Position numbers and translations under genes: made by a program. A DNA stretch of 64,000 nt, from contig CM051517.1 in NCBI GenBank assembly GCA_028015205.1, positions 57,225,455 through 57,289,454 of the forward strand. Reading direction: 5' to 3'. Below, one piece after another: positions 1 to 39,901 of the stretch. This DNA is from Mytilisepta virgata. Its lineage: Eukaryota; Mollusca; Bivalvia; Mytilida; Mytilidae. Below the pieces are notes generated by a model that was not told the origin of the DNA, made no database searches, and worked only from the letters and a program-made list of their open reading frames with translations. Numbering within the stretch: position 1 is the stretch's first letter; every line of letters begins with the position of its first letter.

Positions 1-24
1 AACAATGCAAGCTAAAGACAGTGA

Positions 25-184: not shown

Positions 185-242
185 TCAAAATTATGGTATT
201 TAATTTTTCCTCCGTTTCCATTTTTTTACATCTAATCTCTAC

Positions 243-2906
243 CTTAGACTTGTTTTCATCAATACGTCTTCGTCTTTCTGTGATATTATCCTTATACCTC
301 TCTACTGAAGATGCCTAAAAACAAAAGGACATTATCTTGAAAGGTACTATTCTTCTTTTACATATAACAGACTTCCCATTTATGAACAAGAGATAACCAT
401 GGCAACATATTGTTAGAAAAGTCAGACCTCTTCCAAACATTCATATTTGATTTCCCACCACAAGGTCCAACCAATGTACTGCCCATATAATTTGTCCTGA
501 ACGTCCAGGCTATATCCTTATTTAACATTTTATCCTGCCCATTCCAGATATGAAGCATAAAAGCTAGAAGCAAATGTTTCGTCCTGAATATTCAAAGAGG
601 TCAAATTTTACCATATATCAGAGCTTTCCGAGTCTGTTCTAGATAAAAAAATTATTTACTACAACCCATAGCTTTTCAAGACTTTTCTAGACAAAATTTT
701 ATTTACTATATCCAATAGTTTTTCAAGTCTGTTATAGATAAAACTTTATTGTGAAATATTTTGGTGGAGAAAGAACAATTTTACATAACCAAGACTTTGA
801 TAATTTTTTATCCATCTGGAAGGAAGCCAGTGATTGATTTGAATCTGATATCAGAACTTTATATATATACTGTTGCATTTTATGACTTTTTATAAGAAAA
901 TATACATGTATATTGGACAGATACATGTATCATGGGGAAAATATCATATCTCCAAAGTGAACTGAGCAAAAATCGGCAGACACTATTAGAAATTTGTTTG
1001 AGAGATATATAGATTCTACAACGATAACTAGTTGATTATGAAATTTATCAACTTGAGTTAAATTTTCATGAAAATGAAAATTTAATTATCCAGAGTAGAA
1101 AATTTCATAATAAATATGTCAAGAGTATTAGAATATCTTTCTCTAAGTACAATGTAAAACTCCAAGAGGTCTTCAGATCGTTTTTTTTTTTAGGGAAATT
1201 TCACGAGTATTTAACCAACGTGTGGTGTGATCAGATTTATCAAATGGGTCCTGAGATCTAAAAATACGCACAGAATTAGAGAAATACATGTATAATACAA
1301 ATAGTGAATACAAAAAGATTTGTCCCCCAATGGGATACTGGATAATTTCTCTGTGTATCCATTATACTATGTTATAAAATAAAGTTGGTTTTATACAAAT
1401 TTTGGCATAATTTTACAAATACATGAACACTGCTAATCTTAAATAATGCATGTAATGTTTAATGAAAACCAGCATTTTTCAATGAATTGTCAAACAAATG
1501 ATTATCAATGAATCAATCAATATGTTCTTAGCCAAAAGGTTACAATATATAGAGATAAAGTAAAATCTAAACTTTTAAAAGTGCAATAATACTAACATAA
1601 TTTTCCATTCTTTCATCAAAACATTCTATTTCACTCTCTAAGTCCTCAAATCTTTTTAAAAGTCTTGGCAAACGTAGTTCATCATTCTCTAATCTTCTTG
1701 GGTCTTTACGCTTCTGAAATTAAAATTTCAACAAAAATGAAAGTACATACATACATGTAGAGTATGTGTCAGTGAAACATAAAAATTTCAATGAGAATCT
1801 GAAAAGTTCAATGACTGTTAAGTGACTAACAGTATGTCCCATCTTTTGACATGTAGAATATGTAAAAGAAGTTACAATTACAGTTTATTCTGGACATTCT
1901 CAAACTCAGACTCTGGAGAAATTCAGTAAACTAAACAATCATGTCTTTCATACAGTTTGAAAACTAGACAAAGGACGTAGGAGTTGGTACAGACTTATGG
2001 ACAATAGAACAAACTGATTTCTACATGTACATGTATATACACCAAAGTACATGCAGCTACATGTATATACACTTCCATAAACTTTGTACGATAGGCATAC
2101 AAAAAAAAATAATTCTGCATGTTCAAAATTATAACATGCTTTTTGTAAATGTCATAAGTTGTAATGAATCATAGTTGAAGATCTTTAAGGATGCTCACTG
2201 GTCATGTTTTGGTCTTTTTGTCAGATTTTCGGAATTCTCAGGTTTTATCCATTTCTTAAACATGAATTTTTTTGCCCATGAACCCCCACTTTTTCTTTTA
2301 TAATTCAATCATATATACCTTAAAATGGTATTTGACAAAACTTTATGAGACTGAAGTTGTCAATGCAAAGACAATGACAAATCCAGAGAAAACCCATTTC
2401 CTGCTAATTTTCAAGGCCTTATAGCTCTAAAATGAGCACATGAACCTATATTTTTTTCTTGCTTATTTATTTACTATTCATATGTTCTCTCAAAATAAAA
2501 CACCCATTTCAAATCCTATTTATTTCCTATTAGACAAGTGATCACCCTTAATATTAATATCATTGGACAGCCAGATCTCCATGTATTTTTCAGAACAATA
2601 ACAACCCATGAAAAGATAACTGAAGTGACTTTTATTCTTTCAAGAGAATTTTTGGAACAGCACTTATAACTTTTGTCAAGGATTTCAAGGACAGTGGGAA
2701 CCCTGTCTGCTTTATCAAATTTGTGTTATACATACTCATCTTGCATTTTACCTTGGAATTTGACTGAACTATTTGGACTGTCTGATGACTGGCTGATTCT
2801 GACAACCTTGGTCTCTTTGCACAAGTTGGTCCATCTATTCCTGATGACAGAGTTGAATCTGTCAGTCTCGCTTTCTTAGCAGGTGGAGGAACATCTTCAT
2901 CTTCAA
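243..2906 (-). CDS. Exons 18-20: NLS-like basic stretch and coiled coil, continuing off the left edge
   Basis: Exon 18 (2906-2752) joins exon 17 in phase 1. It encodes an acidic patch and the basic motif PPPAKKARL, then AKRPRL, which look like nuclear localisation signals. Exon 19 (1713-1597) is highly charged with heptad-like spacing (LKRFEDLESEIECFDERMEN). Its donor is GTTAGT, less standard than the others. Exon 20 (314-243) continues the coiled coil (ERYKDNITERRRRIDENKSK). The coding sequence ends in phase 0 at 243 and must continue beyond position 1. I see no bromodomain or acetyltransferase motif in the part visible here. Confidence 0.65.
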
Positions 2907-5900
2907 CTGGAGTAATATATCACTAACTTTATAATCTAAATATTCTTTTGAGAGTCAAGTTGTTTTTTACTTTTAAGGGATATAATATCTTAATGGTGAA
3001 TGAATGAATTACTGTTTAACGTCCAGTGACAATTCTATATGCATATCAGGATGAGAGCACGTTGATTTATTACGAAGATAAACCCTGCTTTGTACTAAGC
3101 TGATCTGCTGAGCTGGATTTTTAATGTGCTAGTTCACGAGGTAACAGTCTGCAAGAAGACATACCACTTCACATGGAAACATTATACTGACTCCGAGCCA
3201 ACTAGTCCTTTGCTCTTGCTCCTTGATGCTGTGTTCTTGGTGAAGAAGCAGCAAATACAAATTTTAATGTCTTTGGTTTGACCAAGCTGGGGAACGAGCC
3301 CATGACCTACTGCACTCGAGCACATTATCAAAAGACCACAATATACATAAAAACGTTGTCATTAGATCAGATACATACATGTAACACCATAAGAATACAC
3401 ACTTTTAAGTGATCTCTAAACACAGTGATATGCGGCTACACGGGGGTATTCTCATTATGAACAAACCATGTCAGATGAGGTCAGACTAAAAAATTTCCAT
3501 GTAAATGACATGTATCAATTTATGCATCCGCATACTACGGAAAATCTGAATTATGCTCCTATCAAAGTCTGTTGAAACATGGCTTAAAAACTTCCATGGA
3601 AATTACATATCAATTCATGCAGCTTAACATCATATACCAGATTTTATCATCTAAACATTGTTTAGTAAAGACATCATGAAAAACATAAGTTTACTCCCTC
3701 AATCATGTTACCCAGGGGAGATAACACAATTATAGCCTCACTTTATTCCTTAAGACCAAAGGAAGAAAATTAGCATTATCTCCATTGGATAACTAAATTA
3801 CAAGTATACTATACATGTATATGGTGTTAAGCTATTGAAGACCACCATTATTTGTTTATAATTTTAATTTGAAACAAGCAATTGGTTAAGAAAGTTAGAA
3901 TATACTGTGTACTGCAATACCACAATTTTTGAACATACATGTATTATATATGTACATGTATAAACTACTTTGATCAGTTTATAGGAAACCATAAACCTCT
4001 GCCCCAACATAGGCTATATCATATAAATTATTGAACCGAAAACTATCCATAATATACCCTATAATTGCAGTCCTATTATCCTACTAGAATTATCTGTATA
4101 ACTTACCTTCAACAATACTTGTGTCAGTTCTTTTCTCCTGAATTTCTCTATGTACTTTGTACAATTTATCAACCACACAGTCTAAATACTCTTTCTATAA
4201 TGGTTAAAAAAGTCAAACAGTAACAAATAACTAACAGAAACTAATTTTTGTTCTTTCTTACGTCAAAGTAGAGCTGCTAATGAAATGACTTGCTCTGACA
4301 AATTCTGCATCAATTATATTGCTTTGTATTTGAATGAAATTTTACAGAAATTTGTAGAAGTTGTACTTTTAAGGTCAATTCCATATGATAAATCAAATAC
4401 ATGTAACTGATAAAGTCCAATTACCTCCCATTCAAGACTAAGGGAATTATTTACATTCATGCATATCTCTGTTCTACCTTTGGGACAGGGGAGCTAAAAA
4501 TGCCTATAAAAACAATGTTACCTTGCTAGAAGCTTTATCAAACAGATGTTGTTCTAGCCTACTGAAGTAGGCCACAGCATTAATCAACTTCATGTTCACA
4601 CCACCTGCCTCTAGAGCTCCTGGCATGATTGTTTCAACACTGAAAAAGAAGGTGTTTATAACTATTTGATAGCTGCATGTACTATGGTGAAGAATGGTTT
4701 TTAGTATTTAATGGCAATCCGTTGTTTTTTAGGCATAAGAAAGTCCGTTTTTTATAAAAAATACAGGTCAGAGTGAGGCATACAGTCAGATTTACTGAAA
4801 TGAAACATGGCAATGGCGACAGGAGAGGAATGTACTCCACTCTACTGTCAGTGTTTTCACTAAGGTGCAACATTTTTCAAATTCATGCGCCCCTGAGGCG
4901 TGTGTAGATTTCACCTGCTGATACTGAAAACTGTAATTTTACTGAATAACTTTCCCCTGGCCATGAAAATCTAAGGGAAAGACGAAAGAAACACCGACAC
5001 CATAAGGTGGAAAATGAGAGGAATAAAAATTCTGGCAGTCTTCATCAGCCATAGTTTTTACCAACAAATCTTTCATATTTAAATAGATTTAATGCACTTT
5101 CACTTTTCAATGAAAGAACAATGGAAATCTTGTCAACATTGATTACATATGTCAATAAAATAAAAAAAACCAAAACAACATTGATAATAATTTGTTTTAC
5201 ATATCAAGTGCTAAGTTGTCCAATTCTTTGGTAATATCTGTAACAGAAATTTTCTACACCAAATGTTAAAATTTGATTGATTTTAAACCAGTCAGTATTC
5301 TGAGGCAACACAAGATGTTAGTTAAAACTTTATTTAAAGTGCAATAGACTTATATCAATATACTGAACATTAAAATCAAACAGGAATCAACAATCTAATC
5401 CAGCAAATTCCAGAAAACTTTCAGGCATGTATGGAAGGTTTTAACAAAATTCTTGGATGCATTACTCCATTTGACATAATATTGATACTATGGAATATCA
5501 GAAACAGTACATGTATACCAATTATATGGGCTTGATTTATGGAACAGCAGAACAGAAACAGTACATGTATACCAATTATATGGGCTTGATTTATGGAACA
5601 GCAGAACAGAAACAGTACATGTATACCAATTATATGGGCTTGATTTATGGAACAGTAGAACAGAAACAGTACATGTAAACCAATTATATGGGCTTGATTT
5701 ATGGAACAGCAGAACAGAAACAGTACATGTATACCAATTATATGGGCTTGATTTATGGAACAGCAGAACAGAAACAGTACATGTATACCAATTATATGGG
5801 CTTGATTTATGGAACAGTAGAACAGAAACAGTACATGTAAACCAATTATATGGGCTTGATTTATGGAACAGCAGAACAGAAACAGTACATGTATACCAAT

Positions 5901-8900: not shown

Positions 8901-11900
8901 AGACATACAGTATAAATACATACATCTGAAAGAATTTACTTGATCTCAAGCAAATAAAATTTTAATTTGCAAATTCAATAAGATTTGACAAATTAACATA
9001 AACATGTAGATGTGAAATTTATGTGTCATATACAGCATAGTATAAATTTACTATATCTAATATTAGTATCTTTGGATTGTTATTTTGAAACTCCTGGGAC
9101 GATGCCTCTGCATGGTGGACCCTAGGTTCCCGAGAGTATTCGCCAACCCAGACGTCAGACTTGTCCGACATGATTATTCATTGATTTGTTATAGAAATTA
9201 CCAGTATTTAGCAAAATTCAAAAATAATAGAATTACTAAGGGTTCATTCCTTGTATTGCACGTAGTAGATCTCCTTAGCTGAAATTTGGCTTCCTATTTC
9301 GGTATTTTTGGTTATGAGTACTTCTTGTTTTAAAATAAGTTTGGTTTTTGGTCTTTCGGTTTTAATACTGCTGATGAGAGGTAACTCCTTGAAATGCGTC
9401 GTATACAGCAAAGTATAAATTTACTGTATCTAATATTAGTATCTTTGGATTGTTATTTTATAGTGGAAGTTAAATTCGACTGCACTTACAACTTGTTAAC
9501 AAGCCTATTTCTTTCTTCTAATGACACTTTTCCTTTCCACTTGTCTTTCTTTCCAAGTCTTTGTCCATTAGTGAATGACATATTGGCACTATCTTCTATA
9601 AAATTTAAGAACAAAAAAACAACTTAGTCTAAATTCCCAAAATACAATTAGCGTGATTTCATTACTATATGTGGTGGGTCTAGTGGAAAATAAAATTCCA
9701 GTGGGGATGTGGAAAGATTTCAGTTCTCTTTGGCTTAAATCTGAAACTCCCCTAGTGGTCAGTATATCCTTGTCCATAATCCTCTTGTTGGCAGTCAAGT
9801 TATACTAGATTTACAATGAGCAAAGATAATGCTATAGTCAAGGTATTACAACATAAACCATCAGTGTGTTTCCACCCCCCACCCCCCCCCCCCCCCCCCC
9901 CACCCCCGGTTCGGACCCTTCCTGTAGATGTGGAGCTAAAAGAGAAGACTCCTTCCATTTCTTCTTCGAATGTCCATTGTATAATGACTTACGCAACTCT
10001 TTATTTGATGGATTGGTCTGGTTACCCGATTGCCTAAAGCTTGATTTAAAATTATTAACAGCCGGAAATAGTTTACTTACAAATGAACAAAACGAGAATA
10101 TATTTAAAAAGACTTTTGACAATATAAAAAAATCAAACAGATTCCTGATAACTTAAAAATGAACAAACCCCGAGAGAATCCACACACACACACTTGCATT
10201 ACCATTATGTCTCAATACTTCCTTTCTATCAATTTATCTCTTGCTTCTTTCTTCTCTTATGTATCTTTATATTTTGATTCATTTTCTTCTAGTATGTATA
10301 AAGGCTTAAATTAATATTTATTATGTTTTGTACATGCTCTAAAATTGTAATGATATAAATCGTATATAGGGAGAAGACGATCTAAGTTTGTTTAACTTGT
10401 GTCTGATCCCTTTTACTTTATTGGAGTAAATAAAATATGTTTAAACTAAACTAAACCCCCCCACTAAAAAAAAAAATGTTTATGTTGGTAATTTTGCTGG
10501 AATCAAGTGAACCTTAACATACCTTCAAACTTTGTATATAAAAGGGCACCTTTTAATAAAAGGCACTTTGTACATGTATAAATTTCTTTGGACCAATGTC
10601 TGATTGTATGTAAATTACAAAAGGAGAGAGTTACCCTCATAATCATAGCTGTTTACATATGTGTGCATCTTCTTAAAAACATTATCATATTTCATCAGAA
10701 ATTCTCTTATGCTCTTCTTGTCTGAAATTAAACCAATAAATTGTAAAATAAATTTTGTTTCACATCTGATTTTGATGACAAATCTGTTCTATCAACTCAC
10801 TAAATGGACCTGCATGTTCCACAATTCAACTTTATTTTAATAGGTCTGAAAGGTTAAACTTTTTTCAGACAACTGTTTTTTTTTTCTCTTTTTTCTCAAA
10901 AACCTAAAGTAATCACTAAACTATGATTTTACTTCAGTTACATGAACATACATGTAGTCGTCCTGCTTTAAACAAATACTTGAGTGAAACAAATAAAATA
11001 AGTTCTTGCAAACTTCTTTTCTGATGATGCAAAGTCAAAATCTCTGATAAATGAGAGAAAGAATGCCAAGTTTTTATCTTTTAATGTTTGTTTAGGTTTA
11101 TAACAAGTCATACATGTGACAGACTGTCAAAGGCTGATCAGCGTCTCAAAACTGAGGTATTTTTATTGACCTATTTTTATGTTGTATTTAAGTTTTCCTA
11201 GCCTTTTACTGGAGTATATTTTTTTCTGTTACTAAGTGTTGCTCTTTGACTTTTTAACTCAATAAAACTTGAATCTGTTAAAAAAGGATTTTCGATTTAT
11301 CACAGACACAAAAATTGATCACGATGCTACAATGTTAGATTTTGGGGGAAAATCGATACTTTTGGTCAATGAAATTGCTAGTCCTACATATTTCTAAAAT
11401 CAATTTGATTTTCTGTAAAACTGAACGATTTTCAGATTTTTTTCATGTCCATTCCAGAAACCAAACTGAAACATGTTTGTTTTGTAAACTTCCTGTTGTA
11501 ATTTCTTGATGTTTGCAGTTTGAGTTCGAAAGTTTTCTGGCATAATAAATAAAAAAAATTGTAATAAAATACTATTATAACATTTATTTTATCATACAAA
11601 CATTGTGTTTGGAACTTCCTCTGCATCTAAAAAGGTAAATTTTTCAAAATATTTGACGAAAATGCGTCTTCTGAAAAATTTTTGGACAGTTTTTGATAAC
11701 AGGATTTTTAAATATCCAATGGGAAGACTGGAGGAGACCTCTAATATCACGATTTTTGTACTCCTGTCAGGGGAATCACATGTATGATAAGCAAACCAGT
11801 ATAATGAAATATACTTACCAACAAAGTTTATGCCTTTGGACTGTAGAAAAGGAGAAGAGCAGAGACGACAATTTTTAATTCTGCATGTTCCAGAAGGTGA

Positions 11901-26900: not shown

Positions 26901-27089
26901 ATTCATCTACGTATATTTTCTCATTTGCTATGTCCAATTACAGCTTAGATGCATTGAATGTTTATATAATTTTTTTGTTAACCTGTATTACTTTGGTATA
27001 ACATACCTGTTATTCCAAATTGAAGTTGTTAATTGTCAGCTTACGATAAAAGCATGGTTTCAGAGAATGACTGTTACCCGTAATTTGAT

Positions 27090-27129
<40 letters not shown>

Positions 27130-30100
27130 ATCTATGGAATACATTAGACATAGAAGGTCTACATTGGAGTTTGGGAATTTAGAATTTCAAAACATTGCCT
27201 ACCAATCAGAACTATAATTTCAAAATACAAACATCTGGAAAATATTTTGTTTATCCTAGTTTTTCTTTAATTGCGTAATTCTACAATCTTTGCATATGTT
27301 TGTATTAATGTAAAAACATTATGATTTTTAAATACGTATAATTACATGTATATTAAATTGTTAATATCCTTTGGATCATAAATTTTTTATACATTCTACA
27401 TGTATACATTAATTTATCCACCTGTTAATAAATTTTTCAACAAGTTGTTGTTTTAAACATAATAATGTAACACTTGCTTTAGGTGTTTACATTGGCAACA
27501 TGGAGCCAAGTCAAACTCACTGCCATGATTGTTATCGGCTGTTTATTTACTTTTGTTTTGACTTGATCACTGCCACACAACACTTGAAAACTGAGTAAAG
27601 GTCCACAGATGTTTGAATCATACTTTTGATGTCAAATTTCAAATTTTACTTTTACAGAAAAATTTTTATTTTTTTCAGGAAATCAAACGAACTTGTTCCA
27701 TTGGCAACTTTTACCTGAGAACCAGATATTTTAAGTTTTAGTTAGTCTTATGTATATTTTTCATACCTATAACAGACCCTATCTTCCATAAAAAATCTAT
27801 CCATATTGTTTCTCATTTTTTCTAGTGAAAGTTGGTCAGTTGACATGTCACTGCAGTGTACTCCAAATGTTGGATCAGGGTATCCTTGAACACTGTTATG
27901 TTCAGACATTGGATCTCTTATTCGATCTAAAACATAAAATTATGCATATTTATATCAAAATTTAATAATATCGATCAGTTTATAAAATTTTCTATATTAA
28001 GCCACATAAAAATTATGATTCTCATTTTAGCTGCCTCTTTGATCTCCAGGAAATTTTACTCAAATGTTCACTGTACCATGAAATTTAGGTCAAGACCTTA
28101 AAAAGGCACATATATCATAATGTAAATGTGTACCAAGTTTCATAATGATGTTTCCCCATCTTCATAGAAAAAAGCTTCAATGCAAACCTTAACCTGAGGA
28201 TTCTCCATATCATTTCCCATGTTCACAGAACCTGGAAGTTTAGTTCAAGACCTTAACTTTAGAAAGTTCATACCATGACTTACATGTATATCAAGTTTCA
28301 TAATGATGTGACCCAATCTTCATAGAAAAAAAGCTTCAACACAAACATTAACCTGAGGCTAGACGGACAAATGAACAAACAGAGAGACGTACAGACCGAA
28401 AATCTATTGTTGTAAATTACGCTAAAAGTAACGTCACCTTTGGCGGCGCGGCCGCTCAACATTGTGACGTAACGCTATTGTAACGTTAGTTGGTTATTAG
28501 AAGTTTGTAATGAAAGACGCATTCAATTTGTTGACAACTTGACCAACTCCCCTAAACACAACGCGAAGCCATTCTACGATATTGTGGTGCCGTGACCAAC
28601 AACAAAAGATGGATGTACAACGACTGAAATCTTTGAGAGCCGCAAACAAGGCAGCCGTGACAAAATTCCTAAAGAAACTGGAAGATATTACCAAAGAGGA
28701 ACTTGTTGATTCCGAGAATGTGAAAAACATTTTGAACAATATTCAAAAGAAGAAAGTGACACTTGAAGGTTTGGATGGACAGATTCTAGAGAAAACAGAG
28801 GAGGAGGATATGGCAGATGAAATCATGGAGTCAGATGAGTATTATTTAGAGTTAGACGATAAATTACGCAAATACAAGAAGTACTTGGACACAAACGCAA
28901 ACCCCGCATGTACTAGCAATTCAACACTCCGTGGTAATGCTCCTGAGTTCAATCCATTCACAAACCAAACTCAAACACAACGTGAAGCCACTCAAACATT
29001 TTCACAAATGAGTACCATGTCTAGCCAGAATCACCGTCTTCCGAAGTTGTCACTACCGAATTTTAGTGGAGAAATACTCGATTGGCAGTACTTTTGGGAC
29101 TCCTACGAGTCGACCGTGCACTTCAATCATACTCTTACTGATGTCCAGAAGTTTTCGTATTTAAAATCATTGCTTCAATATGATGCCGCAAATGTAATAT
29201 CAGGTTTGACAATGACAAATGCAAATTACCACACAGCAATTGAGTTACTGAGAAACCGCTACGGCCAGCCGCACAAGATAACGAATGCGTACATGAAATC
29301 GCTATTAGATTTGCCTGCACCGCTAGATAATATTGACAGTTTAAAAACATTTCATGACAAATCAGAAGCTTATATACGTGGTTTAGAGTCGTTAGGCCAG
29401 AGTCAGGAAATGTTTGGATCACTACTTATACCAGTTATTCTTAGTAAACTGCCGCCAGAATTTCGAAAAACAATCATGCGAGAAAATGGACATGACAATT
29501 GGAACATACAGACACTTCGTTGTGCAATTACACAAGAGATTTCTATTCAGGAATCGGGATATACAGACTATGCGCAAAAATACAATGGAGCAACTCCAAG
29601 TGCAAACTTCGTAACAGGAGTTAGACGTCAAAACAAGCGGAAAAAGTTCACAAAAAAGTCTTTTGAGAAAACACCAACATTGACAAAGAAGAGATGTGTT
29701 TATTGTAATGGAAACCACTGGACAAACGAGTGTAAAGAGGTAACCGATTATGAGGAAAGAATTTCAATTGTAAAAGAAAGGAGCCTTTGCTTCAACTGTC
29801 TTGGTACACATCGAGTAGCCGATTGTAACTCAAGAAATACATGTAAGTTTTGTCACCGCAAACATCACTCAACACTTTGTAAAAAGAAGGTAAGTACCAG
29901 TCACAAGTCACAAGATAAAACTCAGAGCAAGGAACAGGAATCGGCAACATCAGTAATGTATACCGCAAACAGCGAGGATAAATCTGCAGTTCTTTTGAAA
30001 ACCGCTATAAGCCCAGTAGTTTATGAAAATACTTTTATTGACGCAAATATTCTATTTGATGAAGGGTCGCAACGATCTTTCATAACTCAAGACTTAGCCA

Positions 30101-33100: not shown

Positions 33101-36100
33101 AAGGAGATCCGTTCCAAGAATTATGATTTCGGACAATGGTTCAAATTTAAAGGATCAGCAGAGCGAATTACAAGATCTAATAGAGACAATAAAATCCAAG
33201 GACTATTAAACGAAAAGGGAACCGAGTGGAAATTTATTCCGAATCGTGCTCCGTGGTTTGGAGGTTATTGGGAAAGACTAATTGGAATCACGAAAAGAGC
33301 TATAAAGTGTACATTAGGGAAAACGTGCGTTAGTACAGAAATGCTAAGAACTATTGTGACTGAAATAGAAGCAACTATGAACAATCGTCCGATAACTTAT
33401 ATATCTACCGATATCACAGATCCCGAACCGCTGACACCAGCACATATGTTATATGGACGTAGAACAGACTGTGCACCAGATGAAATCGCATTAGAAAATA
33501 GTGTTTTGACCGAAAATTTACATTCGAAACTTAACAGAAACTTACAAAGACAGAACGAACTTTTACAACAGTTTCGAAAACGATGGACGCATGAATATTT
33601 AACGTCTTTGAGAGAGTATCATCGTATGACCGGTAAAAACGAACAATTAATTAAATCTGGAGATGTAGTACTTGTGCATAACGATTCCAATCGCATTACA
33701 TGGAAACTTGCCGTTGTGAAGGAACTGGTGCGTGGAAAAGATGGACTTATCCGATCTGCCGTAATTAAAACAGAAAATGGAATTACGAATCGTCCCATAG
33801 TGAAACTGTTTCCGTTGGAAGTAAGAGGAGCCATCGACGAATGAACCATTTTGCCCGACGGAGGATATGATGGGAAAAGAGACTGTGTTAATTATATCAT
33901 TAGAGACTGTGCTAATTTTATTTAGTTAGAGACAATTGAGTTTAATTTTAATTCATTTCTTCAGTGCAAGTTTTATTACTCATTCATTACTTATTGACAT
34001 TAGAATTGATATTGATCAGAGATATAGACATTTTATTCTAAAAATAATTTTATCATATTGTAATTTATTTTGGTAAAAAGTGATTTTCGGCGGCCCGAGA
34101 ATGTTGTAAATTACGCTAAAAGTAACGTCGCCTTTGGCGGCGCGGCCGCTCAACATTGTGACATAACGCTATTGTAACGTTAGTTGGTTATTAGAAGTTT
34201 GTAATGAAAGACGCATTCAATTTGTTGACGCCTTGACCAACTCCCCTAAACACAACGCGAAGCCATTCTACGATATCTATATGTCCTCAAGTTTCGTTGG
34301 CAGGACATGAAATTTTTTTAGATTTTAATGTCTAAAACTACAAATCTTTCAACTACATCCAGACTTTCTTATTAAAAATAAATCTGACCTAGATGCTGAA
34401 AAACTCTACACAATATATCTCCTGGACTTTCATTTATAGCATATTGTAATAGTTTCTGTAGCTGTTCTCTAGTCAATGATAGCAGGGTTTCTGTTAGCGG
34501 AGCATGAACTGGTACCTAGAAAATTACAAAACATAATTAGACCATGAACTGAAAGTTAAATGTGATGAAATAAAGACATGCACTGGTAACCTTTTTTTTT
34601 CTTTTTTTTTTAGTGTGGGGGGGGGATAGGGGAGGCGTCAGGTTTATGTAGAGTTAGATCTAATGAATCAAATATGGGAACTATGACAGTCGTGTTTATT
34701 ATCCAATATCAAATTTCACTGCAAAATTGGCTAAGGTTGTATAAAATATTAATGTTTATATAAAATAATCCCTTCTGTACGCACCTTTGATGGCTGTCGT
34801 ATTCTTTTTATTATAACAGCTATAATGTGACGGCACCATATCATATTACATGATGAACATGAAGTTGATGTGATTCTTTGCTTTTCAAATGTCAATGTAA
34901 CTCTTATATCGTTGACAAATCCAGACAGCATAAACCCTACAAATATGAAGTTTTAGATATAAAAAATTTGCACAAAGTCAGTCAAAAATGGATATAAAGT
35001 TTTGTAAATTTTGTGCAAATATTTGACTGAAGTGGCAAAATGTAAATTTATGAAATTCTCTTCCTCTCCGAGGTGAATTTTTATTCAAATATTGCATACA
35101 TTTAATATACTGGTACATGTAACTACCAAAGTTATATTTATTAGATACAATTCTCATATCAATTTCCAAAAATTCATTACTGTTCTATGACCCCCCTCCC
35201 CCACCACTTCCATTTTAACAAGAGGCTCACCAGAGCCTGTATCGCTCACCTGGAGTCCAGTTTTCATTGGACAATTAATCAACTATTTGACCAAGTTTGT
35301 TGCAATTGGTTCAATTGTTCAGGGAAAATTTGTTGAAGATTTATTTTTCATAAGGTTTAATGTTAAAATATGTTCCCTGATGGTGGTAGTCCTGGCAGGA
35401 AGTTGATAAAATTGACCAGGAATAAGGGTGAACCTTAAATAAATGTAACAGAACCCAACCTCAAATTACACAAACCAATAACTCCTAAATAGAATTTGGG
35501 AATCCCTTCAAAATTTCAGGGTATGTAGATCTCAACATGGCAAACATTTTTCAATTTACATTTCACTTATATCTCAAATAGTTTTGGAGATAAATGCAAA
35601 AATGTTAAAATTTTGAAAATTTGACAAAAAAGGGCAATAACTCCTAAATGGGTGTTGGGATTTCCTTTAAAATTTCAGGGTATGTAGATCTCAACATGGC
35701 AAACATTTTTCAAATTTACATTTCACTTCTATCTCAAATACTTTTGGAGATAAATGACGAAAAATGTTAAAATTTTGAAAATTTGATGAAAAGAGGGCAA
35801 TAACTTCTATACGGGTTGTGGAATTTCCTACAAAATTTCAGGGTAGGTAGATCTCGTCATGCTGATCAATTTTACCCCATGTCAGATTTTTGATATCTGT
35901 AACGGTTTTTAAGTTATAAGCCAAAAACAACACATCCACCCCTATATTCTATTTTTAGCTACGACAGCCATGTTTTACGTCAGATCAAAATAAATTGAGG
36001 ATCATTTGTAGAGGACATGTCATAGATCATTCCTATTAAGTTTCGAACCAATCGGCCCAGCGGTTTCAGAGGAGAAGATTTTTGAATGAAAAAATTTTGA

Positions 36101-39100
36101 AAATTTGACAACAAAAGGGCAACAACTCCTAAATGGGTTTTGGGATTTTCTTTAAAATTTCAGGGGAGGTAGATCTCAACATGGGAAACATTTTTCAAAT
36201 TTACATTTCACTTCTATCTCAAATAGTTTTGGAGATAAATGACGAAAAATTTTAAAATTTTGAAAATTTGACGAAAAAAGGGCAATAACTCCTAAACGGG
36301 TTGTGGAATTTCCTTCAAAATTTCATGGTAGGTAGATCTCGTCATGCTGATCACTTTTACCCCGTCAGATTTTCGATATCTGTAACGGTTTTTAAGTTAT
36401 AAGCCAAAAACAACACATCCACCCCTATATTCTATTTTTAGCTATGACAGCCATGTTTTACGTCAGATCAAAATAAATTGAGGATCATTTGTAGAGGACA
36501 TGTCATAGATCATTCCTATTAAGTTTCAAATCAATCGGCCCAGCAGTTTCAGAGGAGAAGATTTTTGAATGTTAAAAAAAAAGGCAATAACTCCTAAATG
36601 GGTTTTGGAATTTCCTTCAAAATTTCAGGGTAGGTAGATCTCATCATGCTGATCAATTTTACCACCTGTCAGATTTTCGATATCTGAAACGGTTTTTGAG
36701 TTATTAGCAAAAAACAGCAATTTACCCCTATGTTCTATTTTTAGCAACAGTTTTTCATCGGATCAATATAAAATGAGGATCGTTTGTGGAGGACATGTCA
36801 CAGATCATTCCTATTAAGTTTCAAACCAATCGGCCCAGCGGTTTCAGAGGAGAAGATTTTTGAATGAAAAGTTTACGACGGACGGACGGACGGACGACGG
36901 ACGAAAAGTGATGGCAAAAGCTCACATGGCCTTTGGCCAGGTGAGCTAAAAATGGAGACTTCTTTTGGGTCTATCAGCACAATGGCAAGTATTGAATTAA
37001 CCTTTCAAGGAAAAAAACAAACTGACCTATCAACCTTATTTTATTTTTTTGGCCCTATCAGACACTGCCCATTGATAGGAGATAACTGTTTATTTTAATC
37101 AAACTTGTAAGCTTACTATTGTTTTACTGATACTGACCTACTTGTCGGACATTGTCCACCTCTCCACTGTCGTAAAGTGTCGCTCCTGTTTCCCATTCTG
37201 TATTATTTTCATCACGAGCTGTCAACTGGCATATTAGTTTTATGTGTTCTTCATCATTTGGGAATGCATGTGATGAAATCTACTTGTACATAAACAAGAG
37301 TGGACACACTACATGCCTTGCCTGTGTATGCACATTGACACAGAATAATGATTATCTGATACTCGACATTTTGCAAGTCAAAGGAAAATGTGCTAAAAGA
37401 AATTGAGGTCAAGGTCAAAAGGCAGATGTCATACCAACATGTATCCACTAAGAACTATCTATTGACCAAATATGATGGGTCTAAGTATTAAAGTTGCTGA
37501 GAAATGGACCTAATCTCGAAAATGTGACAAAGTAACTCAAGCATGAAATTGAGGTCAAAGTCCAGAGACATGTGCCAGACTTGCATGTACCCACTAAGAA
37601 CTATCAATAGACCAAAAACGGATTAGTCTAAGTATTAAGAGTTGTTGAAAAATGAACTTAATCAAGAAACTTGGATGAAAGTCACTCAACCATGAAATTG
37701 AGGTCATAGTCCTGAGACAAGTGTCAGACTGGCATGTACAGTATGGTCAAAGTGATACTGTGATTTTCCACTTTTCACAAGTGGACACCACTCAAATTCA
37801 ACAACTTCCTGTCAACTAAAAATAGTTATGTCCACTCAAAATTTGGGTGGACATTTGTGGAAAGTCAGTAATTGCATACCATATATACATGTAAACTGTT
37901 TCTACAAAATATATATGAAATGAGAAATACTCATAATTAAATAATCATAATTTATTATTTTATATATATTTTTTCATTTCTTATTGCTTAGCAAATATTT
38001 AAGTGTTAAAACTACTGACTGTCCACAAATGTCCACCTCAATTTTGAGTGGGGTCCACTAATTTTAGTGGACTCCACTCAAAATTTGAATGGACTCCACC
38101 ATGCAGAATGCAGGGAAAATCACAGTTCCACCCTGACTGTACTGTACCCACCAAGAACTATCAACAGACCAAATACAGTGGGTCTAGGTATTGCAGTTTC
38201 TGAGAAACCACGAAAAAGTGACAAAGTCTAGCAGGTGTCAGACTGACATGTACCCACCAAGAACTATCTATTGACCAAGTATGGTGGGTCTAGGTATTCT
38301 ACTTTCTGAGTAATGGACTTAACCACGAAAATGTGACGCACGTCACTAAAGCATGAAATTGAGGTCAAGGTCAAAAGGCAGGTGTCAGACTGACATGTAC
38401 TCACCAAGAACTATTGATCAAATACGGTGGGTCTAGGTATAACAGTTTCTGAGAAATGGACTTAACCACAAAAAAATGACAAAGTCACCCAACCATGAAA
38501 TTGAGGTCAAGGTCCCAAGCCAGGTGTCAGACTGGCATGTACCCACTAAGATCTATCTATAGACCAAATATGGTTGGCCTAGGTATTAAAGTTGCTGAGA
38601 AATGGATTTAAATTCATGTTTATGAAGTCAGTGAACCAAGAAAATGAGGTTAGGGATACAAGACAAGTATACTGTGGCAAACCTTATATGATAAGCTACT
38701 TTGTAGACCATAAATCTTAATTGTAGGTAGTACATGTGCAAAGTTATTAAAGTTTTTAAAAAAGTTTATGCCTCCGGTGGGAAGTAATACCTATACCTCG
38801 CCTCTGCGACGTTTCGTTGCAGGCGAGACAAAAATATATGCACCTTATTTACAACATTTGCATATCAAGTTAATTTCTTGATATACATATATACTGAAGA
38901 AAAGAAACACAACAGTACTCTGACATAATATTTATTCTTTATGAGTCTTTATCATTTTCAAAATTTGAAAAGCTACACATCAACTGTTAACTTCTCAAAT
39001 TCAAAAAGGACTTTCAGTATGCTTGTTTGCAAAGACACTCAGCTACGGCCGTTCTGACAACTTCAGAAGTCGAAAAACATTTAAAATTAAATTTTTTGTT

Positions 39101-39901
39101 CAGGTAAATTAATCTAGGAGTGATGGATTTCTCTTAGAAGAAATTCAAAGGTCCCATTGAATAAACTCCACAGAGAACAATAGCTATTATATTTATTCAA
39201 CAGGACAGAAGAACTTACAGAAGTTTAAATTGACAGGTAACCTAAAAGAGAATCTGTAGAAAAATTTCATTTCTTTCGCAATAAGTTTTATTAAATATTG
39301 TAATTACTTGTTAAATTTTATCATCATTTATCTAGTTCAATACCACATCCAACTGGGGGCCTCGGTGGCTGAGTGGTCTAGGTAGTTCGTCATGACTACT
39401 AATGATCACTAGCCTGTCAACACTGAGGTTGTGAGTTCGAATCTCACCTATGGCGGGGTGTGTTCGACTCCAATCTTAATTGACAAGGACTGCCAATTTT
39501 CCTACCGAAGGTCGTGGTTCCCTCCGGGTATTCTGGCTTCCTCCTCCAATAAAAACTGGCCGCCACGAGATAGCCTAATGTGGTGAAAACGGTGTAAAAC
39601 CCCAACTAAACTAAACAAATCCAAAGTCAACCTTCCCTATCCATTTTTTTATTTTTCATTTAGTATTTAAGACAATAAGAATTTATAAAAATTAATTCCA
39701 TACTGCCAAATTGATAAAAAAGATTGAAAAGTACTCTAAAAAAAGCTTTACCTTTTTGAGAGTTGCCTCATCAAATGGTGGGTTTGCAGCCTCAATTGAT
39801 GTACATCCAACATGATATCCCACTTTGACAATTGCCAAATCATATAAAGAGCAAACACCTTGCTGAGGCAGTTTTGAAGGCATTGCAACCCTTTCAATCA
39901 T
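243..39901 (-). CDS. Large spliced gene: ZSWIM-type SWIM protein with TAZ zinc finger and KIX-like domain (3' end beyond window)
   Basis: Exons were read by hand, all on the minus strand, high to low: 39901-39752, 37279-37138, 34936-34785, 34515-34389, 27926-27767, 25541-25369, 24146-23996, 22381-22163, 21369-21219, 20230-20170, 19395-19310, 17274-17082, 12238-11819, 10721-10635, 8764-8734 (weak), 4639-4522, 4194-4107, 2906-2752, 1713-1597, 314-243. Each has an AG acceptor and GT donor, and every junction keeps frame, giving 2853 nt (951 residues) without a stop. The order is BC-box-like N-terminus, SWIM finger, ZSWIM-like helical region, TAZ finger, Cys-rich modules, KIX-like domain, basic NLS-like segment, coiled coil. 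ZSWIM proteins are known substrate receptors of cullin-RING ubiquitin ligases, and TAZ and KIX are the activator-binding domains of CBP/p300, so a nuclear protein coupling activator binding to ubiquitination is an inference. Two fused gene models remain possible, with a start at Met526. No transcript evidence was available. Confidence 0.72.
1003..1290 (+). repeat. Dispersed repeat, copy 1 (related copy at 58021-58327)
   Basis: This segment shares order and sequence with 58021-58327, including the starts ATATAGATTCTACAACGAT / ATATAGATTTTACAACGAT and the shared end AATACGCACAGAATTAGAGA. No coding potential or clear target duplication was seen. Part of it folds back on itself around an AATTTTCAT/ATGAAAATT core. 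Confidence 0.7.
3001..3330 (-). mobile_element. tRNA-derived SINE, family B, degraded copy
   Basis: Reverse-oriented relative of the copy at 50807-51166. It shares the tail (TTAACGTCCAGTGAC here, inverted), the stretch ATTTTTAATGTGCTAG and the segment TTTTAATGTCTTTGGTTTGA. The tRNA-like head is eroded. It lies in an intron of the large gene. Confidence 0.75.
4107..10721 (-). CDS. Exons 14-17: KIX-like domain
   Basis: Exon 14 (10721-10635) encodes a charged helix (DKKSIREFLMKYDNVFKKMH). Exon 15 (8764-8734) is a proposed 31-nt microexon that restores phase but has a poor polypyrimidine tract, so it is the weakest link. Exon 16 (4639-4522) and exon 17 (4194-4107) carry the recognisable KIX part at about residues 765-836: KLINAVAYFSRLEQHLFDKA then KKEYLDCVVDKLYKVHREIQ. 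These align with CBP KIX '[43 protein letters not shown]'. KIX is a three-helix domain that binds activators such as CREB and MLL. Its position after a TAZ finger copies the CBP/p300 order. The first KIX helix is poorly conserved or mis-modelled. Confidence 0.72.
5491..6135. repeat. 54-bp minisatellite, array 1 (about 12 units)
   Basis: Units carry the core ACCAATTATATGGGCTTGAT in a 54-bp period. Variant sites (GTATACC versus GTAAACC, and AACAGCAG versus AACAGTAG) recur with a three-unit rhythm. The right end is cut at TTATG by the element at 6136-7884, beyond which the same repeat resumes. Because 54 is divisible by 3, long ORFs run through the array on both strands; I regard them as artefacts. 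Confidence 0.95.
6136..7884 (+). mobile_element. Pearl/Helitron-like non-autonomous element, family 1, inserted in the minisatellite
   Basis: It starts AACAAGAGGCTCACCAGAGC and ends in an imperfect hairpin, AGCTCACATGGCC...GGCCAGGTGAGCT, followed by AAAAA. The interior is a set of diverged ~170-330 bp tandem units carrying GGGCAATAACTCCTAAATGG and GGTAGATCTCAACATGGCAA. A second full copy lies at 35218-36951, and reversed relatives at 55251-56513 and 56756-58011. No transposase ORF and no clear target duplication were seen. The architecture resembles bivalve 'pearl' or helentron-derived repeats (family knowledge, not tested). Confidence 0.75.
7885..8437. repeat. 54-bp minisatellite, array 2 (about 10 units)
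   Basis: Continuation of the array at 5491-6135, beginning in mid-unit (GTAGAACAGAAACAG) directly after the inserted element. Variant units repeat with period three: TATACC/CAG, TATACC/TAG, TAAACC/CAG. Confidence 0.95.
9029..9459. repeat. 58-bp direct repeats bounding about 315 bp
   Basis: 9029-9086 and 9402-9459 are near-identical (two differences seen) and share ATCTAATATTAGTATCTTTG. The segment between them has no convincing ORF. It could be a local duplication or the trace of an element. Confidence 0.75.
9912..10456 (+). mobile_element. 5'-truncated non-LTR retrotransposon (LINE) 3' end
   Basis: An ORF to the stop at 10156 encodes CRCGAKREDSFHFFFECPLY, a C-x-C...H-x4-C pattern typical of the C-terminal Cys/His motif after the reverse transcriptase of some LINEs. 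About 300 bp of 3' UTR follows, ending ATGTTTAAACTAAACTAAA. The 5' junction is a long C-rich tract (about 9876-9907), and nothing of the upstream polymerase remains. The tail resembles that of the SINE at 24250-24603. Confidence 0.65.
11819..17274 (-). CDS. Exons 12-13: complete TAZ zinc finger plus Cys-rich modules
   Basis: Exon 12 (17274-17082) and exon 13 (12238-11819) join in phase 1 and together give a full TAZ domain at about residues 545-615. All three HCCC ligand sets are present: His554/Cys558/Cys563/Cys568, His577/Cys581/Cys587/Cys592 and His601/Cys605/Cys609/Cys612. Landmarks such as STMKTLLDH and QHWLDC match the CBP/p300 signature 'RTMKNVLNH...SHWKNC'. The first module has the short spacing of TAZ2 rather than the long TAZ1 loop. 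Downstream of the finger, exon 13 continues with four more C-x(3,4)-C-x2-C clusters to about residue 728. TAZ domains bind transactivation domains of transcription factors, which is the likely role here. Exon 12 has a Met as its second codon. Confidence 0.88.
13020..13990. repeat. Diverged ~527-bp tandem duplication
   Basis: AGATTGAATAAATACTGTAG occurs at about 13022 and 13549, and both copies later contain GAGCATCCTCAGT followed by a TATGCTC motif and a GTCATTCTA motif. The first copy includes the inverted F-box fragment at 13401-13515. It is intronic. Confidence 0.6.
13401..13515 (+). pseudogene. F-box exon fragment, inverted partial copy
   Basis: The forward sequence matches the reverse complement of 15784-15938 (shared TTAAGAGCCTTTCACATATA and CAAGATTTCCAAGTTATAGA). 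It encodes the F-box helix KYLNIKSLSHIRQVC but has lost about 30 bp of the middle present in the other copy. No start or gene context. Confidence 0.6.
15358..15974 (-). pseudogene. F-box/leucine-rich-repeat (FBXL-like) pseudogene
   Basis: 15974-15792 encodes an F-box start: ATG, then LPTEILFHIFKYLNIKSLSH and IRQVCKLFYQIA, as in substrate receptors of SCF ubiquitin ligases. Further 3' the strand encodes FBXL-type leucine-rich repeats (NCPKLTD..., LTELEDLSIGHI, CKNLKRLDIS). The pieces lie in different frames, with a stop just after the F-box at about 15791 and more disruptions around 15615-15690, and no splice sites rescue them. It sits inside a 4.8-kb intron of the large gene on the same strand. 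A rapidly decaying duplicate is the simplest reading. Confidence 0.65.
16600..16946 (+). mobile_element. Decayed fragment of family 1 element
   Basis: TTGGCCAAGTAGTTTCAGA and AATAGCTCACATGGCCATTT match the 3' part of the element at 6136-7884 (GGTCAAGTAGTTTCAGAGG, AATAGCTCACATGGCC). The terminal hairpin is broken. Confidence 0.45.
17462..19301 (+). mobile_element. Pearl/Helitron-like element, family 2, copy 1
   Basis: It starts AACAAGAGTGGACACACTAC and ends in a TCTCGCCTCCGCGAC...GTCGCAGCAGAGA hairpin-like terminus. The interior holds about eight diverged ~140-150 bp units with ACCAAGAACTATCTATTGACC and ATGAAATTGAGGTCAAGGTC. A second copy is at 37293-38835. A MITE (18341-18835) is inserted into one unit. 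The right end lies 9 bp from coding exon 11 of the large gene (19395-19310). Confidence 0.75.
18341..18835 (+). mobile_element. MITE with CAGACCTGTTTACC inverted ends and 6-bp target duplication
   Basis: The ends are CAGACCTGTTTACC and GGTAAACAGGTCTG. The flanks are ACTATC at 18335-18340 and at 18836-18841, and the uninterrupted host unit (AAGAACTATCTATTGACC) is known from neighbouring repeats, so the duplication is direct. A related element lies at 26242-26652. No transposase. Confidence 0.85.
19310..27926 (-). CDS. Exons 5-11: ZSWIM-like helical middle and acidic linker
   Basis: Exons 27926-27767, 25541-25369, 24146-23996, 22381-22163, 21369-21219, 20230-20170 and 19395-19310 follow the SWIM exons without a frame break. 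Exon 5 contains GYPDPTFGVHCSD, resembling the ZSWIM segment 'GAPDPTAG..SD' that follows the SWIM domain. Exon 6 has the helical KKKDVDMAGRVLIQIAQSVF, comparable to the family's 'KRRDSNAAPLLEILTEQ'. Exons 7-9 are helical and lack motifs I can name. Exons 10-11 are short, acidic and probably disordered (ESDDFMDDCLDVD). The intron between exons 4 and 5 holds the BEL element. If the model were really two genes, the most plausible break is after exon 11. Confidence 0.7.
21015..21109. repeat. Near-perfect 95-bp foldback
   Basis: The left arm (CCATATCTGCCCGGATGTCA..., 21015-21059) is complementary to the right arm (CTCAGGGCAGATATGGAAGT..., 21067-21109) with small gaps and a 7-nt loop. It is intronic. 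Confidence 0.8.
21610..21742. repeat. Foldback/MITE-like inverted repeat
   Basis: Arms AATTTTGGAACA...AACCTACTTTGGTCAGTTTAC and GTAAACTGGCTCAAAGTAGGTT...TGTTCCAAAATT pair over about 50 bp each. Confidence 0.7.
22562..22778 (-). mobile_element. tRNA-derived SINE, family A, 5'-truncated
   Basis: Reverse-oriented relative of 39355-39617, sharing TGAGATTCGAACT (inverted B box), GGAGTCGAACACACCCC and ATTTGGCTATTTCG. The first part of the tRNA-like head is missing. Confidence 0.8.
24250..24603 (+). mobile_element. tRNA-derived SINE, family C
   Basis: The head contains an A-box-like TAGTGGTTAGAGCATCG and a B-box-like GGTTCAATTCCCG at tRNA spacing, then a ~270-bp body ending AAATAAATAAGTTTAAACTA. 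That tail resembles the LINE tail at about 10430-10456, suggesting mobilisation by that LINE type. Located in an intron of the large gene. Confidence 0.75.
26242..26652 (+). mobile_element. MITE related to 18341-18835, 6-bp target duplication
   Basis: The ends are CAGAGATGTTTACC and GGTAAACACCTCTG, flanked by TTACAA at 26236-26241 and 26653-26658. The right side shares GTAGTGGTAAAC with the first copy. Confidence 0.8.
27092..27127. repeat. (TA)n microsatellite
   Basis: Uninterrupted alternating AT of about 36 bp inside an intron. Confidence 0.95.
28408..28582 (+). repeat. 5' LTR of BEL element
   Basis: Starts TGTTGTAAATTACGC and ends near CTACGAT(AT). It matches 34102-34276 apart from about four substitutions. 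It includes a GC-rich GGCGGCGCGGCCGC stretch. Confidence 0.9.
28585..28597 (+). other. Primer-binding site, probably tRNA-His
   Basis: TGGTGCCGTGAC lies 2-4 nt after the LTR and is complementary to the 3' end of animal tRNA-His (GTCACGGCACCA), the presumed primer for minus-strand synthesis. Confidence 0.7.
28609..32118 (+). CDS. BEL/Pao gag-protease-RT-RNase H polyprotein, prematurely stopped
   Basis: I start at the ATG at 28609, just past the primer site; the frame is open slightly upstream but only with a TTG. The 1169 residues comprise an N-terminal gag region with charged helices, then three Cys/His knuckles near residues 362-425 (for example CVYCNGNHWTNEC, CFNCLGTHRVADC). The aspartic protease motif LFDEGSQRSF is near residue 480 (DEG where DSG or DTG is usual). 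RT has ADIEKAFLQIEL near 820 and a YVDN box near 895, where BEL elements normally have YVDD. RNase H begins with FTDASQLAYGACAYL near 1065. A TAG at 32116-32118 interrupts the frame, which then continues with recognisable sequence. Confidence 0.93.
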   Translation: MDVQRLKSLRAANKAAVTKFLKKLEDITKEELVDSENVKNILNNIQKKKVTLEGLDGQILEKTEEEDMADEIMESDEYYLELDDKLRKYKKYLDTNANPACTSNSTLRGNAPEFNPFTNQTQTQREATQTFSQMSTMSSQNHRLPKLSLPNFSGEILDWQYFWDSYESTVHFNHTLTDVQKFSYLKSLLQYDAANVISGLTMTNANYHTAIELLRNRYGQPHKITNAYMKSLLDLPAPLDNIDSLKTFHDKSEAYIRGLESLGQSQEMFGSLLIPVILSKLPPEFRKTIMRENGHDNWNIQTLRCAITQEISIQESGYTDYAQKYNGATPSANFVTGVRRQNKRKKFTKKSFEKTPTLTKKRCVYCNGNHWTNECKEVTDYEERISIVKERSLCFNCLGTHRVADCNSRNTCKFCHRKHHSTLCKKKVSTSHKSQDKTQSKEQESATSVMYTANSEDKSAVLLKTAISPVVYENTFIDANILFDEGSQRSFITQDLATKLNVKKEDSESLSISTFGNADKKTRNLDKTTIYLKSNEGDLIPIKVLIVPTIAPALQNQDIPSSQRFPYLRGLQLAHPVMHGEQFEINLLIGGDFYWDIVQDKIIRGNGPTAVSSKIGYLLSGPVPTKSNNMSTSMMNILVCRKQEETDLEKFWKLESLGINAKEQNDPKINEIIADYMENSIIKQNEKYVAKLPWKEDSPELPTNRETAKRRTGSVIRRLVKEPEIFRKYGENIAEQERRGFIERIPIDNEQPTHTIHYIPHHPVRKDSTTTPIRIVYNCSCKANKDSPCLNDCLDSYPPLLPDLTEILVRFRMYNYAVTADIEKAFLQIELDPTDRDATRFFWLEDPTEPQSKLITYRFRVVLFGATCSPFMLSATLMKHFRNNPSSTSSELQNNLYVDNVLTSFIDENSALNFYAESRKLLSEAGFNLRSWNSNSKDLQNLAAKDNVAEKEKTVKILGMKWNTETDKIEYQPVNITEINKLVTKRQVLSSSSRIFDPLGLIAPVTVKAKLFMQQLWKSKLDWDEILSEDLSRQWHDIAVEIENATNMTFQRSLLDTDKLDGSLHIFTDASQLAYGACAYLVTKNSSLIIMAKNRVAPIKTISLPRLELMGAVTGARLANHLREIVKPQNIFMWSDSQIVLSWIISTKKLKPFIANRLSEIRELIGNCH
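32119..32556 (+). pseudogene. BEL pol continuation after the stop (RNase H to integrase linker)
   Basis: Same frame as the upstream ORF. It starts with the conserved PTEDNPADYLTRG segment of BEL pol, so the preceding TAG is a late mutation or a read-through site. The frame ends at TAG 32554-32556, with continuity passing to another frame near 32535. Confidence 0.85.
32536..33209 (+). pseudogene. BEL integrase, N-terminal and catalytic part (frameshifted)
   Basis: The frame contains the integrase HHCC zinc-binding region (HEKTH...CVTC), then VTGVDFTGAL and ISDNGSN, carrying the first two acidic residues of the catalytic triad. It stops at 33209. Continuity passes to a third frame at about 33180-33200. 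Confidence 0.88.
33185..33844 (+). pseudogene. BEL integrase C-terminal part and DUF5641-like tail
   Basis: Includes PWFGGYWERLI, supplying the third catalytic acidic residue, the MNNRPITY block, and a C-terminal GDVVLVHND...RPIVKLFPLEV segment typical of the DUF5641 tail of BEL integrases. Stops at 33844, about 260 bp before the 3' LTR. Confidence 0.88.
34102..34276 (+). repeat. 3' LTR of BEL element
   Basis: Matches 28408-28582 with about four substitutions. The last one or two bases overlap the target duplication ambiguously. Confidence 0.9.
34389..39901 (-). CDS. Exons 1-4: ZSWIM N-terminal region with SWIM zinc finger
   Basis: Exon 1 (39901-39752) opens with ATG. It contains an SL-x3-A-x3-V stretch at residues 18-27 that fits an elongin BC-box, as in ZSWIM proteins, with Ala in place of the usual Cys. 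Exon 2 (37279-37138) encodes the motif YDSGEVDNVRQVGFMLSG together with the start of exon 3, matching the ZSWIM 'VDNVLQVGFHLSG' region. Exon 3 (34936-34785) carries the SWIM finger: Cys124, Cys127, Cys132 and His134, followed by an RIRQPSK tail like the family's RIRKPDQ. Exon 4 (34515-34389) begins VPVHAPLTETLLSLTREQLQ, matching the family signature after the finger. The first Cys pair is C-x2-C, not the canonical C-x-C. An acceptor-like TTAG directly precedes the ATG, so an upstream 5' UTR exon is possible. Confidence 0.8.
35218..36951 (+). mobile_element. Pearl/Helitron-like element, family 1, second full copy
   Basis: Same ends (AACAAGAGGCTCACCAGAGC ... GGCCAGGTGAGCTAAAA) and internal units as 6136-7884. 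A GACGGACGGACGG run precedes the terminal hairpin. It lies in the intron between exons 3 and 2 of the large gene. Confidence 0.8.
37293..38835 (+). mobile_element. Pearl/Helitron-like element, family 2, copy 2
   Basis: Same start (AACAAGAGTGGACACACTAC) and end (CCTCGCCTCTGCGACGTTTC...CAGGCGAGACAAAAA) as 17462-19301, with ~150-bp internal units. It is interrupted by the MITE at 37739-38144. It starts only about 14 bp from the acceptor of exon 2 of the large gene. Confidence 0.8.
37739..38144 (+). mobile_element. Tc1/mariner-like MITE inserted at TA
   Basis: Ends CAGTATGGTCA... and ...TGACTGTACTG are imperfect inverted repeats of about 30 bp (both include CTGTGATTTTCC or its complement) and sit between duplicated TA inside a family 2 unit. 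The interior has nested palindromes built on TCCACTCAAAATTTG. Confidence 0.75.
39355..39617 (+). mobile_element. tRNA-derived SINE, family A, full length
   Basis: The head GCCTCGGTGGCTGAGTGGTC and the B-box-like GAGTTCGAATCTC are tRNA-like. The body includes GTGTTCGACTCCAATCTTAA and the tail is CCCCAACTAAACTAAAC. Lies in intron 1 of the large gene. Confidence 0.85.

Follow-up and report, generated by a model that had tools for sequence, protein, structure and literature searches.

Does a single gene of the bivalve Mytilisepta virgata join a ubiquitin-ligase receptor to domains of the CBP/p300 coactivators? The question comes from a window of 64,000 nucleotides (nt; assembly GCA_028015205.1, contig CM051517.1, positions 57,225,455 to 57,289,454 of the forward strand), in which a first-pass annotation, made from the letters alone, had proposed twenty in-frame minus-strand exons, with ZSWIM landmarks in exons 1–4 and a complete TAZ finger and a KIX-like domain in exons 12–17. 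We rebuilt the chain from the sequence, and the exons hold as proposed: on the minus strand from 39901 to 243 they sum to 2928 nt, or 976 codons, with no stop codon and with GT-AG splice sites at 19/19 junctions. The gene and its architecture are almost certainly real. Three uncharacterized Mytilus proteins of 1441–1443 residues, annotated with both TAZ and KIX, cover 88–91% of the model at 38–40% identity, and the chain is therefore most likely a single gene. We favor the reading that it encodes a ZSWIM8-type cullin-RING substrate receptor with the stretch from TAZ1 to KIX of a CBP/p300 coactivator inserted in mid-protein, and consider this probable.

The comparisons below draw on 15 proteins (P0001–P0015) returned by three homology searches that scored the candidates sharing exact words with the query (in one search, the 7992 sharing most words), so for the distribution of the combined architecture among molluscs only the positives count and absence elsewhere is not implied. 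With two Mytilus proteins as queries, tblastn matched the window 21 times at an expectation value (E) <=0.01; the reversed window gave no such match. The matches of the M. trossulus protein P0001 are collinear, lie on a single strand and correspond to exons 1–9, 12 and 13 (11 of the 20), and one BLASTP alignment between the model and P0001 runs from model residue 16 to 886, reaching exon 18. Identity in single exons is low for exons 10, 14, 17 and 18, and the KIX exons, 15–17, are placed by Pfam and PDB matches. The exons, all on the minus strand, are as follows.

Exon 1, 39752..39901, minus: start methionine, BC-box and CUL3-box region (SLYDLAIVKV ... NPPFDE); aligns with ZSWIM8 from residue 73.
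Exon 2, 37138..37279, minus: E3 superdomain, mostly between CUL3-box and SWIM.
Exon 3, 34785..34936, minus: SWIM-like zinc motif CSSCNMIWCRH; aligned with ZSWIM8 172–208.
Exon 4, 34389..34515, minus: D-domain (dimerisation helices); aligned with ZSWIM8 225–268; 35/42 identical to P0001.
Exon 5, 27767..27926, minus: SWIM belt and start of the sensor region, by ZSWIM8 alignment.
Exon 6, 25369..25541, minus: N-terminal half; 28/58 identical to P0001.
Exon 7, 23996..24146, minus: N-terminal half; 26/42 aligned residues identical to P0001.
Exon 8, 22163..22381, minus: N-terminal half; 26/73 identical to P0001.
Exon 9, 21219..21369, minus: final exon of the conserved N-terminal half; 26/50 aligned residues identical to P0001.
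Exon 10, 20170..20230, minus: acidic linker, 5' part of DCLDVDMS.
Exon 11, 19310..19395, minus: acidic linker, 3' part of DCLDVDMS.
Exon 12, 17082..17274, minus: TAZ1 zinc sites 1 and 2; Pfam zf-TAZ E 3e-9 (open reading frame 17271–17053).
Exon 13, 11819..12238, minus: TAZ1 zinc site 3 and Cys-rich region; zf-TAZ match over the spliced sequence.
Exon 14, 10635..10721, minus: linker to KIX; weakly alignable, 6/29 identical to P0001.
Exon 15, 9490..9595, minus: start of KIX; Pfam KIX and p300 KIX matches span exons 15–17.
Exon 16, 4522..4639, minus: middle of KIX; same Pfam KIX and p300 KIX matches.
Exon 17, 4107..4194, minus: end of KIX; same Pfam KIX and p300 KIX matches.
Exon 18, 2752..2906, minus: linker; PAKKARL and AKRPRL look by eye like nuclear signals; aligned with EPAAKRPRLSD of M. 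edulis P0006.
Exon 19 (tentative), 1597..1713, minus: charged stretch; open, with splice sites.
Exon 20 (tentative), 243..314, minus: open, with splice sites; the chain runs on past the window edge.

At the 5' end, a TAG stop is the codon immediately before the first ATG of exon 1, and the Mytilus proteins begin about 14 residues further in. At the other end, the Mytilus proteins offer no clear counterpart to exons 19 and 20, either in the alignment or exon by exon, and both are unsupported though open and spliceable; the C-terminal half of the gene would follow exon 20, off the window. An 84-nt open segment with splice sites (21559–21476, minus strand) was kept out of the chain, as it meets a stop if read in phase after exon 8. 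It could be an alternative or decayed exon.

The kinship of the N-terminal half comes from a profile match to human ZSWIM8 in the PDB (9rwz), which covers the E3 superdomain over residues 73–299 with E 2e-32 and by which the gene product is a ZSWIM8-type protein. The Pfam SWIM match stays under its curated cut-off (E 0.0019, 18.1 bits vs 19.6, in the exon 3 reading frame 34952–34755; E 0.027 in the half-protein), and we dropped it as proof of ZSWIM kinship. The low score is probably due to the motif spacing, since the four Cys/His align in place but are spaced CxxC...CxH rather than CxC...CxH. The D-domain (17/43) and the SWIM belt (12/22) are also identical to human ZSWIM8 at many positions, and the profile match spans both. 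In exon 1, SLYDLAIVKV aligns to PLVELSAKQV of ZSWIM8 and keeps the pattern SLxxLAxxxV, which we take to be the BC-box consensus. In the CUL3-box, P98, P99, E102 and E94 are kept, E91 is T, and residues 96–102 are identical at 3/7 positions. Beyond the superdomain, we found no sequence match to the ZSWIM8 region between 304 and 1758 and a weak one at the C-terminal end, and the predicted fold of P0008, a relative without the insert, matches ZSWIM8. The window protein further differs from ZSWIM8 in its short N-terminus and in its TAZ1-Cys-rich-KIX insert. The Pfam families ZSWIM4-8_C and TPR_ZSWIM8 were above cut-off in the ZSWIM5-like P0014 (Xenia sp.); six proteins of the bivalve type were scanned as well and gave no match to either. 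An NCBIfam search gave nothing useful.

The TAZ finger and KIX-like domain proposed for exons 12–17 are both recovered by Pfam in the model translation above the curated cut-offs, zf-TAZ with E 9.7e-11 over profile positions 2–72 of 72 and KIX with E 5.5e-10, and they stand in what we take to be the CBP order, TAZ1 and then KIX. When the insert of the window was searched alone, CBP/p300 TAZ1 was matched at E ~1e-9 vs 0.01 for TAZ2, and CBP/p300 KIX at E 8e-11 vs 0.03 for MED15, the p300 KIX match being gapless over 89 residues. By these matches the domains are a CBP-type TAZ1 and a CBP-type KIX. All 12 residues that presumably form the zinc sites of TAZ1 are present. In KIX, with the human numbering and site roles as we assume them, L603, K606 and Y658 are kept and K662 is replaced by Arg. 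Unlike in CBP/p300 (CREBBP, EP300), the spacer between TAZ1 and KIX is Cys-rich and the domains are embedded in a ubiquitin-ligase receptor; furthermore, Pfam found no bromodomain, histone acetyltransferase (HAT) or TAZ2 in the Mytilus proteins P0001, P0003 and P0006. After TAZ1, exon 13 holds a second Cys/His-rich stretch that is conserved in Mytilus and has no Pfam match above cut-off; it could be another zinc fold.

Whether other bivalves have the same domain order was a check that the first-pass annotation had set, and the order was found in predicted proteins of four Mytilus species (M. trossulus, M. californianus, M. galloprovincialis and M. edulis). TAZ and KIX both appear in the precomputed Pfam column of 5/15 proteins (P0001, P0002, P0003, P0006 and P0015), and TAZ in that of P0007. 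These proteins fall into two paralogs that are ~38% identical: the same architecture is present in paralog A (LOC134714359, LOC127734425 and LOC143071322) and in P0006 of paralog B, which also includes P0007 (M. galloprovincialis) and P0015 (M. trossulus); the paralog B model LOC134714454 (M. trossulus, 1007 residues) has TAZ and KIX and lacks the E3 part. The Mytilus proteins differ from the window protein in their sequence (~40% identity) and in having the C-terminal half.

Four relatives, P0008, P0009 (LOC132552440 of the scallop Ylistrum balloti), P0010 and P0013, share the ZSWIM8-like backbone and align with Mytilus both before TAZ and after KIX. Where the insert would be they have a short linker, which is basic in P0008 and P0009. 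Pfam scans found neither TAZ nor KIX in P0008–P0010, and the Pfam column is blank for P0011–P0013. Because the relatives align on both flanks, the TAZ1-Cys-rich-KIX segment sits inside a single homologous protein. The proposal that one gene joins ZSWIM to TAZ-KIX stands, and its form changes: judged from these alignments, the architecture is an insertion within a ZSWIM8-like protein and not a head-to-tail fusion. In the predicted folds of P0015 and P0008 the C-terminal HEAT-repeat half is a helical solenoid; Foldseek with P0015 alone gave generic solenoids (best E 1.7e-3) and is uninformative by itself.

In a tree built from 14 sequences of the N-terminal half, a branch with 100/100 support sets apart the seven rows labelled TAZ/KIX, the window among them. 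The window branches outside both Mytilus paralogs at 87/85, which is under the tree tool's own mark. P0011, P0005 and P0015 were left out, the latter two because their models lack a large share of the N-terminal half. P0004 was put in the TAZ/KIX group because it is nearly identical to paralog A, although its own model has no TAZ/KIX and continues as CC2D1. P0007, a prediction joined to the PINK1 kinase, was represented by its ZSWIM part. The data do not fix where the root lies, and the tool flagged the meeting of long branches (P0009 and P0014). Since the TAZ/KIX rows and the window form a single clade, one insertion is likely, and the simplest reading of the tree would be a single insertion before the window species and Mytilus paralogs A and B separated.

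The acidic linker of exons 10 and 11 also supports a single gene. DCLDVDMS occurs in none of the six frames of the unspliced window and arises only through the joining of these two exons. We looked for the pattern DCxDVDxS in 12/15 proteins (P0011, P0012 and P0014 were left out). It precedes TAZ in 6/7 TAZ-bearing Mytilus models (P0001–P0003, P0006, P0007 and P0015). The pattern is lacking in P0005, whose incomplete model has a fragment of TAZ, in P0004, whose model has no TAZ, and in all four insert-free relatives checked (P0008, P0009, P0010 and P0013).

What might such a protein do? ZSWIM8 is the receptor of an ELOB/C-CUL3 ligase in target-directed microRNA degradation (TDMD) and, in the report on its structure, defines the class of ELOB/C and CUL3 receptors; there, E91 and E94 touch the CUL3 tail, their mutation diminished AGO2 ubiquitylation and abolished TDMD, and the D-domain also contributes to the groove for the CUL3 tail (PMC13083262). 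By analogy with ZSWIM8, the BC-box would bind ELOB/ELOC, the D-domain would dimerise the receptor and CUL3 would be recruited, which would make the protein an ELOB/C-CUL3 ligase, as we think it probably is. By analogy with CBP, TAZ1 and KIX would capture activation domains, whether of transcription factors or of their mimics, and the captured protein or its partners would be ubiquitylated. The chance that proteins with activation domains are the substrates seems to us slightly short of even. The motifs in exon 18 that resemble nuclear localization signals suggest that the protein may act in the nucleus.

Several observations weigh against this reading. In the BC-cullin-box, the identity between the window and human ZSWIM8 is 10/39. 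E91 is replaced by T, A or S in the five TAZ/KIX proteins compared (T in the window; P0001–P0003 and P0006), and in P0006 E94 is also changed, to Q. In the window KIX, Y650 is replaced by Leu and L628 by Ala. In the predicted structure of P0015, TAZ1 and the Cys-rich part mostly have a predicted local distance difference test score (pLDDT) <50, so that TAZ1 rests on its sequence; KIX has ~41–66, and a KIX fold is found in this structure. A tblastn search for the C-terminal half in window positions 1–5000, with five relatives as queries and E up to 10, gave only chance-level pieces (best E 0.24). Finally, the Mytilus proteins are themselves gene predictions, and two of them hold one part of the architecture each: P0004 of M. 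galloprovincialis has the ZSWIM half but no TAZ/KIX, and P0015 of M. trossulus has TAZ-KIX but no E3 part. We take both to be incomplete predictions. In M. galloprovincialis, parts of this gene or of its paralog are joined to CC2D1 (P0004) and to PINK1 (P0007), and the models are named so; these joins are probably annotation errors.

The replacement of E91 makes a weakened or altered binding of CUL3 conceivable, and hence an alternative in which the architecture is real but the E3 is inactive. With its CUL3 contact decayed, the dimeric scaffold would present TAZ1 and KIX as a competitor of CBP/p300, that is, as a coactivator antagonist. This could explain why E91 is replaced in the five TAZ/KIX proteins, and E94 also in P0006, whereas the six rows P0008–P0013 retain both, and it fits with the bromodomain, HAT and TAZ2 of CBP not being found by Pfam in the three Mytilus proteins scanned. 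However, the D-domain exon, exon 4, is the best conserved of all in the comparison with paralog A (35/42), and the BC-box pattern and, in the window and paralog A, E94 are kept. We regard an antagonist as unlikely, though it is the strongest of the alternatives considered.

Viral proteins target the TAZ1 and KIX domains of CBP. The insert could accordingly be an integrated decoy, in which docking domains like those of CBP lure pathogen proteins directed against CBP/p300 to their destruction by the E3 part. In line with this, between the window and Mytilus A the TAZ1 (32–35% identity) and KIX (26–32%) diverge more than the N-terminal half (52–53%), there are two diverged Mytilus paralogs, and the insert is absent from the relatives. 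In contrast, the identities between the window and paralog B are 46% in the N-terminal half, 39% in TAZ1 and 45% in KIX, with the difference gone for KIX, so the insert has not changed faster in every comparison; and faster divergence would also fit relaxed constraint. We consider a decoy improbable.

Least probable are two adjacent genes, one for ZSWIM that would stop at about 19.3 kb and one for TAZ-KIX that would begin with Met 17271, a split between exons 11 and 12 that the first-pass annotation had left possible: exon 11 read past its donor meets a stop as the second codon, an in-frame ATG lies one codon past the exon 12 acceptor, and P0004 and P0015 each have one part, but all parts are joined in P0001–P0003 and P0006, the Mytilus insert is flanked by halves that make one protein in the insert-free relatives, the linker is common to TAZ-bearing models and absent from those relatives, and intron 11 (2,035 nt, partly tandem repeat) has no AATAAA or ATTAAA on its minus strand, compared with 7 per 2 kb on average over the window. 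On the homologs, the linker motif and the polyadenylation signals we held this model unlikely, and homology answers the question of a split in favor of the single gene.

The window holds other elements. Intron 12 contains, at 15977–15072 on the strand of the gene, an F-box reading frame (Pfam F-box-like E 1.5e-12) and pieces of a leucine-rich repeat (LRR)-like reading frame (LRR under cut-off) in separate frames; it looks like a decayed intronless F-box/LRR copy. Intron 4 carries, at 28408–34276 on the plus strand, a BEL/Pao-type retrotransposon reading frame (Peptidase_A17, DUF1759 and RVT_1) between 175-nt direct repeats that are 98% alike, which suggests a recent insertion. Intron 15 has two arrays of a 54-bp tandem repeat, at 5499–6139 and 7888–8441, with 95–97% matches. 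Ten segments were scanned with Pfam, and the single match at E <=0.01 was to CoA-transferase family III (E 1.8e-8), marking the C-terminal end of such a gene at 54617–55042 on the plus strand.

In the open-access full texts that we searched, we found no paper on the combination of ZSWIM, TAZ and KIX. The Mytilus counterparts are already public as uncharacterized predictions. We tentatively hypothesize that it is a natural ubiquitin-ligase receptor that chooses its targets by their activation domain, either as a CUL3 ligase clearing away active transcription factors or as a decoy for pathogen proteins that attack CBP/p300. If this function is true, evolution would have made what targeted-degradation chemistry aims at, an E3 guided by activation domains. 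The ZSWIM8 class, with its AGO2 structure published in 2026, would then be retargetable by domain insertion, with the insert-free relatives as ready controls, and the gene would provide a test case for CBP docking domains acting outside a histone acetyltransferase.
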